DNA of 64,000 nt from Actinokineospora bangkokensis. Its GTDB lineage: Bacteria; Actinomycetota; Actinomycetes; Mycobacteriales; Pseudonocardiaceae. A program made the position numbers and the translations under genes. Below, one piece after another: positions 5,427 to 48,641 of this stretch (its first letter is position 1; each line of letters starts with the position of its first letter). A model generated the notes under the pieces. It worked only from the letters and a program-made list of their open reading frames with translations. It ran no database searches and was not told the DNA's origin. The stretch spans positions 67,623 through 131,622 of the forward strand of contig NZ_MKQR01000004.1 of assembly GCF_001940455.1 (NCBI RefSeq). The letters run 5' to 3'.

Positions 5427-5491
5427 CGCTCCATCCCACCACCAGCGGTGACCAGGCGGGCACCCGGTATTCACCGTCACCCCCGGTCGGC

Positions 5492-5544
5492 TTGAAGCGC
5501 CGGTCGCGGCGGGTTAGTCTGGTGGTGCTCGAACACGTGTTCGA
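5492..5544 (+). promoter_or_regulatory. SOS promoter with perfect LexA box (HEPN operon)
   Basis: TTGAAG (5492-5497), a 17-nt spacer and TAGTCT (5515-5520) form a good promoter. Starting 9 nt after the -10 is TCGAACACGTGTTCGA (5529-5544), a perfect match to the actinobacterial LexA consensus TCGAAC-N4-GTTCGA, extended to an 18-bp palindrome by flanking C and G. The box covers the expected transcription start, so LexA should block the promoter. The gene begins about 100 nt downstream. Confidence 0.88.
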
Positions 5545-5644
5545 GACGGTCCGGTGGTGGGGCGGGGGAAGCGCCTCACCACCGGACGCCGCTGGCTTCC
5601 CCCCGGCGCGCGTCAGCCGACGGCACGACCGCGAGGAGGTCTCG

Positions 5645-7027
5645 ATGACCAGCACGCTGGACTTCCCCGTCACCCCCGCCGACCCGGACCCCACCCGCCC
5701 CGCCGACCAGCCCGCCGACCAGGCGCCGCCCGCGCGGCAGCGGGCGCCGCGCCGCCCGGGCGGGTCCACGAGCGCGACCCGAGCCGCCCACGAGCAGGGC
5801 CCGAGCGGCCCGCGACCCCTGGACCCCGCCGCGTCCGCCGCGTCCGCCGCGCCCACCCGGCGCCGCCGGTCCACCCGCGACTGGGTGCAGCCCGAACTCC
5901 TGGACACCGAACCGGCGGACCCGACCGCCACCCCGATCCCGCCCCGGGCCTGCCCCCGCCCCGAACCGGTGGGCACCGCCTCCCGGCGCTCGTCGACCCG
6001 CACCCGGGTTCCCGCCCGCGCCAAGGGGTCCGGCACCGGGGACGGCGGTGCGGAGGTCCCCGCCGCCGACCAGCCGGAACTGCTCGCGATCACCGGGCAG
6101 CCCGCCGAGGGCGACCACCCGGCGCTGGTTGTCCCGCAGGCCAAGGGTTCCCGGGGCGCGGGCCGGCCCGAGCCCCGCGCCGGGGCCGGTAGCGGCGCCA
6201 AGCCCGCGCGGGCCGGGCGTGCGCGGGTCCTGCCGCACGCCAAGGGTTCCCGCGCCCAGCAGCCGGAGCTGATCGTGATCCCCGGGCAGTCCGCTGGGGA
6301 CGCCGATCGCGAGCCGGAACTGGTGGGCGCCCGGCCGGAGCGCGTCCGCGGCGAGCGGCGCCCCCGGGGTACCGCGCGGGCCAAGGCTTCCGCACAGCGG
6401 CAGGGGGAACTGCTCGCCATCGTGGAGCAGCCCGGTGAGCGCGAGGCCGTCGGTGCTCGCGCCGCGGGCAGCGCGGTCGCGGGCGATCGGCCCGCGCGGC
6501 CCGGGCAGCCGGTGCCGGACGCCGAGGTGCGGTTGCGCGGCTCCTCCCGGCACACGCCGCCGACGGGTTCCGCGCGGTCCGGCGCGCACGCGCCCTCCCC
6601 GGAGGTGGAGCAGCAGAGCCTGCCCGTGCAGACCCCGCCGCCCCCCGCCCCGGTGCCGCCGTCGGCGGTGCAGCTGTTGCACCAGGCCGAGCAGGGGTTG
6701 CTCGCGGTGGCGGCGGAGACCGACCCCGCGCACCGGTTCGCCGACTCCTACCTGTGCGCGCTGCGCGCGGCGGCGGCGCTGCTGGCCGTGCGCGGGCGGC
6801 CGCACCGGGGGCGGGCGAAGCCGACGAGCGTGTGGACGCTGATGTCCAGCGTCGCGCCGGAGTTCCGCGAGTGGGCGGCGTTCTTCGCCTCGTGCTCGTC
6901 GACCAGGGCGGCGGTGCAGGCCGGGATCAGCAACCGGGTGGGCCCGCGCGCCGCCGACGACCTGTACCGGCAGACCCGGCAGTTCACCGGCCTGGTCCAC
7001 CGCGCAGTGCACGGCACCGGCCGGTGA
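5645..7027 (+). CDS. SAV_6107-like HEPN protein with long repetitive N-terminal region, SOS-controlled
   Basis: This is a 460-residue protein. Residues about 338-455 form an all-helical domain that I assign to the SAV_6107-like HEPN family. Near its end an Arg-x6-His (RQFTGLVH) fits the HEPN Rx4-6H signature, which is usually RNase-active or RNA-binding. Residues 1-335 are low complexity, rich in Pro, Ala, Arg and Gly, with a recurring cassette AK(G/A)S ... Q(P/G)EL(L/I)xI seen at least three times, plus a first QPELL. The ATG is chosen because GAGGAGG lies 5 nt upstream; the frame is open before it. A perfect LexA box in the promoter makes it an SOS gene. It is coupled to the downstream MDMPI gene by a GTGA overlap. 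Confidence 0.75.
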   Translation: MTSTLDFPVTPADPDPTRPADQPADQAPPARQRAPRRPGGSTSATRAAHEQGPSGPRPLDPAASAASAAPTRRRRSTRDWVQPELLDTEPADPTATPIPPRACPRPEPVGTASRRSSTRTRVPARAKGSGTGDGGAEVPAADQPELLAITGQPAEGDHPALVVPQAKGSRGAGRPEPRAGAGSGAKPARAGRARVLPHAKGSRAQQPELIVIPGQSAGDADREPELVGARPERVRGERRPRGTARAKASAQRQGELLAIVEQPGEREAVGARAAGSAVAGDRPARPGQPVPDAEVRLRGSSRHTPPTGSARSGAHAPSPEVEQQSLPVQTPPPPAPVPPSAVQLLHQAEQGLLAVAAETDPAHRFADSYLCALRAAAALLAVRGRPHRGRAKPTSVWTLMSSVAPEFREWAAFFASCSSTRAAVQAGISNRVGPRAADDLYRQTRQFTGLVHRAVHGTGR

Positions 7028-7785
7028 CCCGGCCGATCGACGACGACCGGCTGCTGGACGTGCTCGAGGCGGAGACGCTGCTGCTCGCCGACGTGGCGGC
7101 CGCGGCCGACCAGGACCGCCCGGTGCCCGCCTGCCCCGGTCTGACCGCGGGGGAGACCGCGCGGCACGTGGGCAGCGTGCAGCGCATGGTGCTGTCCTGG
7201 ATCCGCACCGGCTCCCGGCCGCTGAACTGGGAGCGCGAGCCCGACGAGGGCGAGCCGGTGGCCGACTGGCTGCGCGACGGCCTGCGCGCGCTGCTGGGCG
7301 AACTGGCCGCGCACGCCCCCGACCGGGCGTGCCCCACCTGGCACCCGGGGCAGCGCACCTACCGGTTCTGGCGGCGGCGGATGGCGCACGAGGCCACCGT
7401 CCACCGCGTCGACGTGCAGAGCGCGGCCACCGCGGGCGGTCACGACCCCGTCGACCCCGCCGTCGCCCTCGACGGCATCGACGAGGTGCTGACCGCCTGG
7501 TTCACCCAGCGCCTGTCGGAGCTGGGCGTCGCGGGCACCCGGGAGGCCGCCGTGCTCGTCCGGGCGGGCGACCAGGCGTGGCTGGCCGAGATGTTCCTCG
7601 ACCGCACCTCCGCGCAGCGGGTCCCCGCGGGCACCGAGCACCCGACGGCCGTGATCGCCCCGCCCGAGGCGCTCTACCTGTGGCTGTGGGGCCGCTCGGC
7701 GGTCTTCGACCGGGACGTGGTCCGCACCGGCGACGAGGACGCCATCGCGCAGCTGTGGGCACTGCTCCGGCTGGCCACCCGCTGA
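7024..7785 (+). CDS. MDMPI/DinB-like (TIGR03083-type) metal-binding protein
   Basis: This 253-residue protein has the four-helix fold of the mycothiol-dependent maleylpyruvate isomerase N-terminal / DinB-like superfamily. The metal-binding histidines are visible in ARHVGS (near residue 45) and MAHEATVHRVD (near 120-130). A C-terminal part follows (WLWGRSAVFD), typical of TIGR03083 proteins. Relatives are thiol-S-transferases, often mycothiol-dependent. The GTG start overlaps the HEPN stop by 4 nt, so it should be co-induced by DNA damage. The specific substrate is unknown. Confidence 0.83.
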   Translation: MTRPIDDDRLLDVLEAETLLLADVAAAADQDRPVPACPGLTAGETARHVGSVQRMVLSWIRTGSRPLNWEREPDEGEPVADWLRDGLRALLGELAAHAPDRACPTWHPGQRTYRFWRRRMAHEATVHRVDVQSAATAGGHDPVDPAVALDGIDEVLTAWFTQRLSELGVAGTREAAVLVRAGDQAWLAEMFLDRTSAQRVPAGTEHPTAVIAPPEALYLWLWGRSAVFDRDVVRTGDEDAIAQLWALLRLATR

Positions 7786-22739: not shown

Positions 22740-22755
22740 TCGAACACGTGTTCGT
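22740..22755 (+). promoter_or_regulatory. LexA box upstream of recA
   Basis: TCGAACACGTGTTCGT matches the LexA palindrome except at its last base. It shares its central ACACGTGT with the box of the HEPN operon. TACCCT follows directly and may be the -10 of the LexA-controlled recA promoter. Confidence 0.87.
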
Positions 22756-47153: not shown

Positions 47154-47999
47154 TCAGAGCCTGCGCAGGACCGCGACGACCTTGCCGAGGATGGTCGCCT
47201 CGTCGCCGGGGATCGGCTCGTAGGCGTCGTTGTGCGGCATCAGCCACACGTGCCCGTCGCGCCGCTTGAACGTCTTCACCGTGGCCTCGCCGTCGATCAT
47301 CGCGGCCACGATGTCGCCGTTGTCCGCGGTCGGCTGCTGGCGCACCACGACCCAGTCGTCGTTGGCGATGGCGGCGTCGATCATGGAGTCACCGGCCACC
47401 TTGAGCATGAACAGCGACCCCTCGCCGACCAGCTCCTTCGGCAGCGGGAAGACGTCCTCCACCGCCTGCTCGGCCAGGATCGGGCCACCGGCGGCGATCC
47501 GGCCCACCACCGGCACGTAGGTGGGCCTGGGGCCCTGGTCGCCCTGCTCGATGAGCACCGGCGACACCTGCTCGCCGCGCAGCTGGGCGGGCGTGGCGTC
47601 GGCGGGCAGCACGCCGATGGCGCGCGGCCGGTTGGGGTCGCGGCGCAGGTAGCCCTTCTCCTCCAGCGCCCGCAGCTGGTAGGCCACCGAGGAGGTGGAG
47701 GTCAGGCCCACGGCCTCACCGATCTCGCGCACGCTGGGCGGGTAGCCGAAGCGCTGCACCCAGGAGCGGATGACCTCCAGCACCTGGCGCTGGCGCAGCG
47801 GCAGCTCCGCGCCGTCGGACGTCTGGTCGAGCTCGGGGAAGCTGCGCACGTTGCCCCCCGTCAACGGCTTCCTCTTCGGCGCCCCCGAGGGCTTCCGACC
47901 TCCTGTGCCTGCCACTGCTGTGCCTCCCTGCGCGCCGGCGCCCGCCTGCGGCGCCGGTGGAGCCTGAGCCGATCGCGGGTCGATCGCCTTCTCGATCAT
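47154..47999 (-). CDS. lexA: SOS repressor LexA
   Basis: LexA represses DNA-damage genes until RecA filaments provoke its self-cleavage. This 281-residue form has a disordered N-terminus, a winged-helix domain ([33 protein letters not shown]), the cleavage bond Ala170-Gly171 in GRIAAGGPI, and the catalytic Ser205 (GDSM) and Lys242 (TVKTFK). The ATG at 47999 lies 11 nt after a -10 (TACCGT), giving an almost leaderless mRNA. A GTG at 47915 has GGGAGG 7 nt upstream and would give 253 residues, closer to family length; both are credible. A LexA box covers its -35. Confidence 0.96.
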
Positions 48000-48010
48000 C
48001 TCCGGGGTCG

Positions 48011-48051
48011 ACGGTAGCCCGCCGACCTGCGCAGATCAAACACCTGTTCGA
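48011..48051 (-). promoter_or_regulatory. lexA promoter with LexA box
   Basis: On the minus strand TCGAACAGGTGTTTGA (48036-48051) overlaps the -35 TTGATC; a 17-nt spacer and TACCGT (-10) follow. One base differs from the perfect palindrome. This gives LexA autoregulation. Confidence 0.85.
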
Positions 48052-48111
48052 GCGACACGCCGGGGCGGTCTGGAATTCCCGCCGCGTTCGGTGGTACACA
48101 TTCGCACGGAC

Positions 48112-48133
48112 GTTCGATCGAACGGTAGTTCGA
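48112..48133 (+). promoter_or_regulatory. LexA box overlapping the LysM-gene leader
   Basis: TCGAACGGTAGTTCGA (48118-48133) is a perfect LexA box. A second palindrome, GTTCGATCGAAC (48112-48123), overlaps its left half. The box ends 10 nt before the ATG and runs into the Shine-Dalgarno (GAGGAGG). Confidence 0.9.
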
Positions 48134-48143
48134 GGAGGCAGCG

Positions 48144-48641
48144 ATGGCAGCACCGCTGACGTCGGAGATCGCGGGCGCGGGCACCCCGGTGGAGACCGCG
48201 GGCCCGCCGCCGCGACCCGCCCTGCGCGCGGTCACCGCCACGCGGGAGCAGGCACCGGCGCGCCCGGGTCGCCGGGTCGGCCGGGGCAGGCTCCGCCCGC
48301 CGACCCGCCGCGCCCCGGTCGGCGCCCAGCACCTGCTCGGCGCCTCCCGCTGCGCCCGGCGCAGGCCGGTCCCGGTCGCGGCCCTGGTCGGGCTCGCGGG
48401 CGTGGTGGCCGCCGCCGTCGTGGGCCTCGGCGCGTTCGCCGGGTCGGTCGCGGGCGCCGACGTGCCGCGCACGACCACGGTGGTCCGGGTGCAGCCCGGC
48501 GAGACGCTGTCCGGGCTCGCCGAGCGGATGGCGCCGGGCAGCGACACCGCCGCGGTGGTCGACCGGATCCGCGAGCTGAACGCGCTGCCGGACGGGTCGA
48601 TCCGCTCGGGCCAGCCGCTCACCGTCCCCTTCTCCGGCTGA
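48144..48641 (+). CDS. SOS-controlled LysM membrane protein
   Basis: This 165-residue protein has a basic, Pro-rich cytoplasmic N-terminus (about 1-75), one transmembrane helix (VAALVGLAGVVAAAVVGLGAFAG) and an outer LysM domain (VVRVQPGETLSGLAERM ... SGQPLTVPF) that binds peptidoglycan. It is divergent from lexA with a perfect LexA box, the layout of M. tuberculosis Rv2719c (ChiZ), a damage-induced protein that delays division. By analogy it is a candidate SOS division inhibitor. The ATG follows GAGGAGG. Confidence 0.88.
   Translation: MAAPLTSEIAGAGTPVETAGPPPRPALRAVTATREQAPARPGRRVGRGRLRPPTRRAPVGAQHLLGASRCARRRPVPVAALVGLAGVVAAAVVGLGAFAGSVAGADVPRTTTVVRVQPGETLSGLAERMAPGSDTAAVVDRIRELNALPDGSIRSGQPLTVPFSG

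Follow-up and report, generated by a model that had tools for sequence, protein, structure and literature searches.

The present analysis points to a two-gene SOS operon in the window, by which we mean the whole stretch of 64,000 nucleotides of Actinokineospora bangkokensis DNA that was analysed, and we consider it fairly probable that this operon is repressed by LexA and encodes a HEPN-domain accessory factor of translesion synthesis together with an enzyme of the MDMPI type, behind a leader RNA that would act as a translational switch. The LexA box, the operon, its gene context and a conserved RNA hairpin in the leader are supported by comparison with related genomes, and LexA (SOS) control of the HEPN-MDMPI operon is very likely on this evidence. 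More tentatively, and as a serious possibility only, the arrangement may represent a class-wide actinobacterial SOS module in which LexA control is combined with an undescribed leader RNA switch and a non-catalytic HEPN protein that would be an unrecognised partner of DnaE2-type mutasomes.

Promoter, LexA box and the two genes

With reference to the locus itself, a promoter was recognised on the plus strand at 5492-5520, with the -35 element TTGAAG (5492-5497), the -10 element TAGTCT (5515-5520) and a spacer of 17 nt. It is followed by the 16-nt LexA site TCGAACACGTGTTCGA at 5529-5544, lying within an 18-bp perfect palindrome (5528-5545, no strand assigned) that was identified by motif search and family comparison and is expected to overlap the transcription start. 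The perfect box claimed in the initial annotation is confirmed, and boxes of this type exceed chance in the window, where ten LexA-type sites with at most two mismatches were counted vs 1.42 expected, a number reached by none of 100 shuffles. Genome-wide (7.45 Mb), ten perfect sites were recorded, and none when the pattern was read backwards. Internal positive controls for the box search are provided by two other genes of the window, namely lexA (TIGR00498 E 1.1e-72), which lies on the minus strand at 47157-47999 and has boxes at 48036, 48102 and 48118, and recA (PF00154 E 4.9e-143), whose box at 22740 has one mismatch and precedes the RecA domain by about 180 nt. It was also observed that lexA and a divergent LysM-domain gene (47157-48641) have a common control region with three LexA-type sites.

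As for the promoter, which the annotation had described as good, its layout is kept in all four genus relatives compared (a TTGA-type -35, a spacer of 17 nt and a TA...T -10, with the box following after 7-8 nt); a mechanical sigma-70 scan called no promoter at its threshold. No PafBC-type element was seen in the window promoter, and no intrinsic terminator was found.

Behind a leader of 99 nt with the Shine-Dalgarno sequence GAGGAGG (5633-5639, plus strand, read from the sequence), the HEPN gene (PF18726; 5645-7027, plus strand) begins with ATG at 5645 and ends with the stop codon at 7025-7027, its conserved core being encoded at 6713-6997. The gene of the MDMPI or DinB/YfiT superfamily (7024-7785, plus strand) starts with GTG and shares its first 4 nt with the end of the HEPN gene. 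The two overlapping genes proposed earlier are borne out by this overlap and by Pfam matches for both products, namely PF18726 at residues 357-451 of the first (E 6e-33, 113.7 bits vs a cut-off of 27.2) and, in the second, MDMPI_N (E 1.4e-14) and MDMPI_C (E 1.2e-6, its score of 29.6 lying barely above the cut-off of 29.5).

Conservation of SOS control

PF18726 was searched in 120 genomes of the family to which the window belongs (f1) and was present in 108, exactly one copy in each. Boxes were counted at 106 of these 108 loci, the window included and G117 and G030 left out. The proposal that an operon outside the classical SOS set is under SOS control gains clear support from this comparison, as the LexA consensus expected upstream of HEPN genes in relatives was found at all 106 loci, at most 2 kb upstream of the HEPN domain, 102 of the boxes being perfect and four having one mismatch. 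Class-wide, PF18726 was detected in 198 of 296 genomes and in 35 families besides f1, of which 23 were examined for context and box, mostly with one or two loci each. A LexA box with at most one mismatch lies within 1.5 kb in 20 of these 23 families, the exceptions being f2, f18 and f34; in f2, a box with two mismatches is present together with the motif TTGTCGGTG-N8-TATATT. HEPN is among the most constant LexA-box genes seen in these actinobacteria.

Judging from its named loci, f18 is Streptomyces. The Streptomyces set comprised 80 named loci, 74 of them assigned to Streptomyces or Streptomycetaceae, and 73 were counted after one with a short upstream region had been dropped. Within 600 nt, a perfect LexA box was found at none of the 73, a box with one mismatch at three and one with two mismatches at 36. 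At 70 of the 73 loci we observed TTGTCAGTG with a -10 element carrying A and T at two expected places, the first -10 base being mostly C and not T, and on these grounds damage-type control seems to be kept in Streptomyces under what would be a different regulator. We call TTGTCAGTG PafBC-like on the basis of the PafBC/RecA-NDp promoter consensus. Its presence in Streptomyces (L172-L251), where other families have the LexA box, is an apparent swap of regulator at one conserved damage gene.

In Corynebacterium glutamicum, the consulted portion of PMC5055667 describes cg2381 as a LexA-regulon gene of unknown function that ciprofloxacin induces as strongly as recA (M 3.86), and identifies mraZ, which goes down, as cg2378. 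PF18726 was found in C. glutamicum, and this, with mraZ being cg2378, fits the order HEPN-DUF3040-MraZ seen in f2. The selected regulon members in Table 1 of an S. venezuelae LexA study (PMC9380542) include no HEPN gene. A perfect LexA box was also noticed, by eye, before a radical-SAM-like gene with an apparent intein start in frame (L003, 1500-3016).

Gene context and translesion polymerases

The gene context was examined by tblastn with 15 neighbour proteins. The usual order in f1 is GNAT and often YbaK (divergent), then the box, HEPN and MDMPI, the last of these lying downstream of HEPN at 96 of 106 loci; outside f1, no MDMPI match beside HEPN was obtained in the 23 other families. Overlaps of 4 nt were recorded at 58 of the MDMPI loci and of 1 nt at 23, and the HEPN stop overlaps a polymerase start by 4 nt at five loci in f8, f26 and f36, where it should be considered that a script assigned both MDMPI and polymerase starts, taking whichever start codon was closest to the preceding stop or to the beginning of the match, a rule that favours short gaps.

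HEPN has a translesion polymerase gene immediately downstream, or one gene further on, in 17 of the 23 other families. A DnaE2-like C-family polymerase follows it in f8, f10, f11, f15, f22, f26, f28, f31, f32, f34, f36 and f37, ImuA-ImuB-DnaE2 in f3 and f17, and a DinB polymerase in f4 and, with a methyltransferase between, in f12 and f24. The row HEPN, DnaE2, methyltransferase, DinB polymerase and DUF3040 was observed on one MAG contig (L230), and a DUF6504 gene lies upstream of HEPN in f10, f22, f26, f31 and f37 (PF20114 E 1e-14 for L166). No adjacent translesion polymerase was found in the remaining six families (f2, f14, f16, f18, f19 and f20, the last covered with flanks of 1.5 kb only), nor at the window HEPN. 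With 623 bits, the DnaE2-like polymerase of L164 scores below the canonical DnaE2 cut-off of 939 and may therefore belong to the DnaE2B type; according to the accessible part of a 2026 survey (PMC12926913), DnaE2B is accompanied in some genomes by ImuB-C only, or by no partner.

In the window genome, DnaE2 and ImuA' are located on another contig, near two perfect LexA boxes, and the gene between them was provisionally assigned as ImuB from weak polymerase IV matches and its position. Only over-cut-off matches of the profiles NF004225 and NF058630 were used; profile matching of this kind is of limited use because low-score matches occur in most genomes without an over-cut-off match. All 19 genomes of genus g45 lack HEPN and all have DnaE2 and ImuA' over the cut-offs, and 12 of the 120 family genomes are also without HEPN, so translesion synthesis can dispense with it. 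The occurrence of the HEPN gene in polymerase operons of most other Actinomycetes families examined leads us to infer that its product is an accessory (adaptor) factor of translesion synthesis, a role suggested by gene context. Neither this link nor the structured leader RNA figures in the initial annotation. The main texts of PMC12926913, PMC6511836 and PMC3765255 do not contain the term HEPN, and the open-access literature, as far as its text was accessible, yielded no description of a link between HEPN, SOS control and polymerases, or of the leader RNA.

The HEPN and MDMPI proteins

The HEPN protein of the window has 460 residues vs 135-140 predicted in the four genus relatives, which lack its low-complexity N-terminal extension of about 320 amino acids (5678-6634). 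By eye, this extension is rich in Pro, Ala and Arg and carries repeated QPELL-like units; a reading of these repeats as clamp-binding motifs was dropped, the extension being without counterpart in the four relatives and the N-termini being unconserved across families. The predicted structure of the core (130 residues modelled) had a mean pLDDT of 90. Its best two Foldseek neighbours in the PDB were the HEPN proteins 2hsb and 1wol (probability 1.00, TM about 0.6, E 0.09 and 0.22) and the sacsin HEPN 3o10 came ninth, with unrelated helical bundles in between and no match at E <=0.001. On this model, the core is taken to have the HEPN fold. Invariant residues in an alignment of 24 HEPN sequences include R20, W43, P51, W56, R67, G73 and D84. 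Many homologues, in and outside the family, display R10-x4-H15 in helix 2, where the window protein has R-x4-Y, and the R-x6-H near its C-terminus is a formal match kept in one of the four genus relatives; no conserved R-X4-6-H was found when helix 2 and the C-terminus were inspected in this comparison. The HEPN product is a single-copy, probably non-nuclease protein.

In the MDMPI proteins, H122 and H127 are present in 96 of 96 sequences, E123 in 83 and H48 in 84, and these conserved histidine and glutamate residues are presumably ligands of a metal site. The protein is predicted to be a metal-dependent and probably mycothiol-dependent enzyme of the DinB/YfiT superfamily, in which damage-inducible members are known from the accessible parts of PMC10693628 and PMC4338110.

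The leader RNA

The leader hairpin H1 (5549-5587, plus strand), recognised by stem-pair tests and a match to model R1, consists of a 16-bp stem and the loop GGGGAAG (5565-5571). Of 106 family leaders, 94 contain this loop string no more than 220 nt downstream of the box, and as sites were selected by it, the invariance of the loop is given by construction. At 79 of the 94 first leader sites, 12 or more of the 14 flanking pairs could form, vs one of the 222 GGGGAAG sites found elsewhere in these loci, a count that took the first site per leader and applied no energy or pair filter. Among 73 distinct stems, standard pairs filled 933 of 1022 cells, vs a mean of 731 and a maximum of 769 when the 3' arms were redealt. 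A MAFFT alignment of 65 sequences (A4) blurred the stem and was replaced by two others. The first (A5), comprising 30 of the 51 family members in A4 picked by eye for clean alignment, was 97.5% paired, with both bases exchanged in 11 of 16 pairs. The second (A7) held 27 hairpins across families with at least 13 of 15 pairs and gave a covariation of 0.780 vs 0.227 shuffled (none of 500 as high) and 99 cells changed on both sides vs 25.6 shuffled; on a weaker measure, the number of pairs with changes in both arms (13 of 15), 20 of 500 shuffles attained the observed value, and on the other four measures none did. Paired percentages are inflated in A7, which was picked by pairing, and in a set of 108 hairpins that was also picked by energy. 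Judged by these comparisons, the conserved leader hairpin element is real.

A string search recovered the same type of hairpin ahead of HEPN in eight of the 23 other families (f3, f8, f11, f12, f15, f16, f26 and f36), in two Pseudonocardia contigs and in MAG L230, and later also in f21; two far GGGGAAG hairpins (L154 at -1070 and L157 at -1126) were left out. Model R1, which has the window among its 30 members, matched its own genome at one place at E <=1, with 150 of 33749 candidates scored. When 41 loci outside its training set were searched, the leader hairpins of both Pseudonocardia contigs and of f8 were matched (E 2e-7 to 6e-5), those of f3, L230, f11, f12 and f26 weakly (E 0.003 to 0.18), and those of f15, f16 and f36 were missed, with one match elsewhere (L161, E 0.44). 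Under strict filters, the mixed model R2 gave matches in 18 of 118 class genomes. In 13 of them (six genomes of the training set and seven others) the match lies upstream of HEPN, at a distance of up to about 1.1 kb; in two it lies at the equivalent f16 locus, for which PF18726 was not detected, and in three elsewhere, probably by chance. The window leader folds with a z of -2.79, three of 200 shuffles being at least as stable. As to known RNA families, none was matched, Rfam giving for 5450-5750 of the window only a miRNA match of E 0.69, far below the gathering score, and for ten related loci no match at the gathering score.

The element GGCTTCCCC (5594-5602, plus strand) is complementary to both the H1 loop and the Shine-Dalgarno sequence. 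CUUCCCC or CUCCCC follows within 75 nt of the hairpin in 51 of 94 family leaders, vs 2.9% of random 82-nt stretches, and is missing there in the other 43; in the second set of leaders it was present in nine of 14. In a survey of minimum-energy folds, which covered 82 leaders, 71 with a recognisable Shine-Dalgarno sequence, and had no shuffled control, the element pairs with the Shine-Dalgarno sequence in 28 of the 42 leaders having both. Complementarity and folding suggest that the leader may be a translational switch.

Among the 12 HEPN-less family genomes, seven keep the box, the hairpin and MDMPI. Autoregulation of the leader by HEPN itself is weakened as an idea by this persistence of hairpin and MDMPI where HEPN has been lost. 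At one locus (L273, 1500-1790), an apparent internal deletion of the HEPN gene was seen by eye, with box, hairpin and MDMPI remaining. Two f16 loci (L262 and L266) show box and hairpin without a HEPN gene before a convergent gene that looks bldD-like by eye, where a possible SOS small RNA may be considered.

Interpretation and alternatives

According to the explanation we prefer, DNA damage in A. bangkokensis would lead to LexA cleavage and free the promoter region at 5492-5545. The first product, HEPN, would serve as an accessory factor of translesion synthesis, and the second, MDMPI, as a metal- and probably mycothiol-dependent enzyme. In the leader, the GGGGAAG loop of the covarying hairpin would pair with the downstream CUUCCCC element, which alternatively would mask the ribosome-binding site, and a translational switch would thereby add a second layer of control.

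RNA cleavage, which the initial annotation had envisaged for the HEPN protein, would make it an RNase or toxin, induced in the SOS response, whose attack on RNA halts growth. The available part of PMC3710099 states that most HEPN domains have RNase-type motifs, and the R-x4-H of many homologues and the C-terminal R-x6-H of the window protein could be read in the same way; yet the SAV_6107 family is tabulated in that source without a conserved catalytic motif, the window protein has Y for H in helix 2, and its R-x6-H recurs in one of four genus relatives. As the gene is also kept like a core gene, in one copy in every one of the 108 family genomes that have it, and many homologues adjoin polymerases, cleavage finds no support here and we regard it as improbable. 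A checkpoint on cell division or the cell wall, suggested by a position beside the dcw genes and leaving shared SOS control as the only reason for the closeness to polymerases, is a somewhat better candidate, though still an unlikely one. It would account for HEPN-DUF3040-MraZ-MraW in f2, for MraZ/MraW downstream in four family members (G115, G096, G073 and G040) and for the rise of cg2381 with the fall of mraZ after ciprofloxacin (PMC5055667, consulted in part), but not readily for the nearby translesion polymerases in 17 of 23 families, or for DUF3040 lying beyond the polymerases wherever both were seen (f4, f12, f22, f24, L230, L233 and L234).

We give about the same low probability to the leader hairpin being the conserved functional part, as an SOS small RNA or an operon-independent RNA element with the proteins as exchangeable cargo. 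The seven HEPN-less genomes and the two f16 genomes without a PF18726 match, which keep the hairpin, are what such an RNA would predict; against it, 12 of 106 family leaders have box and HEPN and lack the hairpin, and no R1 match at E <=1 was obtained in the seven Streptomyces-type loci searched. The preferred explanation, with HEPN as a translesion accessory factor, would link an uncharacterised gene to mutagenic polymerases for which the set of partners is incomplete, and if the SOS operon indeed carries a structured leader RNA, control of damage-response factors would extend to the post-transcriptional level.

Comparison with known systems

The TTGTCAGTG element upstream of the Streptomyces HEPN homologues resembles PafBC/RecA-NDp promoters, from which the Streptomyces loci differ in a -10 that begins mostly with C rather than T. 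The gene cg2381 of C. glutamicum is likewise LexA-regulated and damage-induced and stands three locus tags from mraZ (PMC5055667, as far as accessible); its equivalence to HEPN is suggested by synteny and family presence, not by sequence comparison. With HEPN_SAV_6107 (PF18726) of the HEPN-M clade the window protein shares the sequence family (E 6e-33) and, as modelled, the fold, and that family is described in the available part of PMC3710099 only as an actinobacterial one without a conserved motif, in an account that does not mention SOS control, polymerase operons or a leader RNA. The ImuA'-ImuB-DnaE2 mutasome and the DnaE2B/ImuB-C systems (PMC12926913, in its accessible part) are similar in their LexA control and in having HEPN in such operons in most other families examined, whereas the window HEPN lies apart from their genes. 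Finally, the DinB/YfiT superfamily (B. subtilis DinB, DR0053 and the SiwR targets) likewise has damage-inducible members and a histidine metal site, according to the consulted sections of PMC10693628 and PMC4338110, while the window protein differs in being of the MDMPI/TIGR03083 type and translationally coupled to the HEPN gene.
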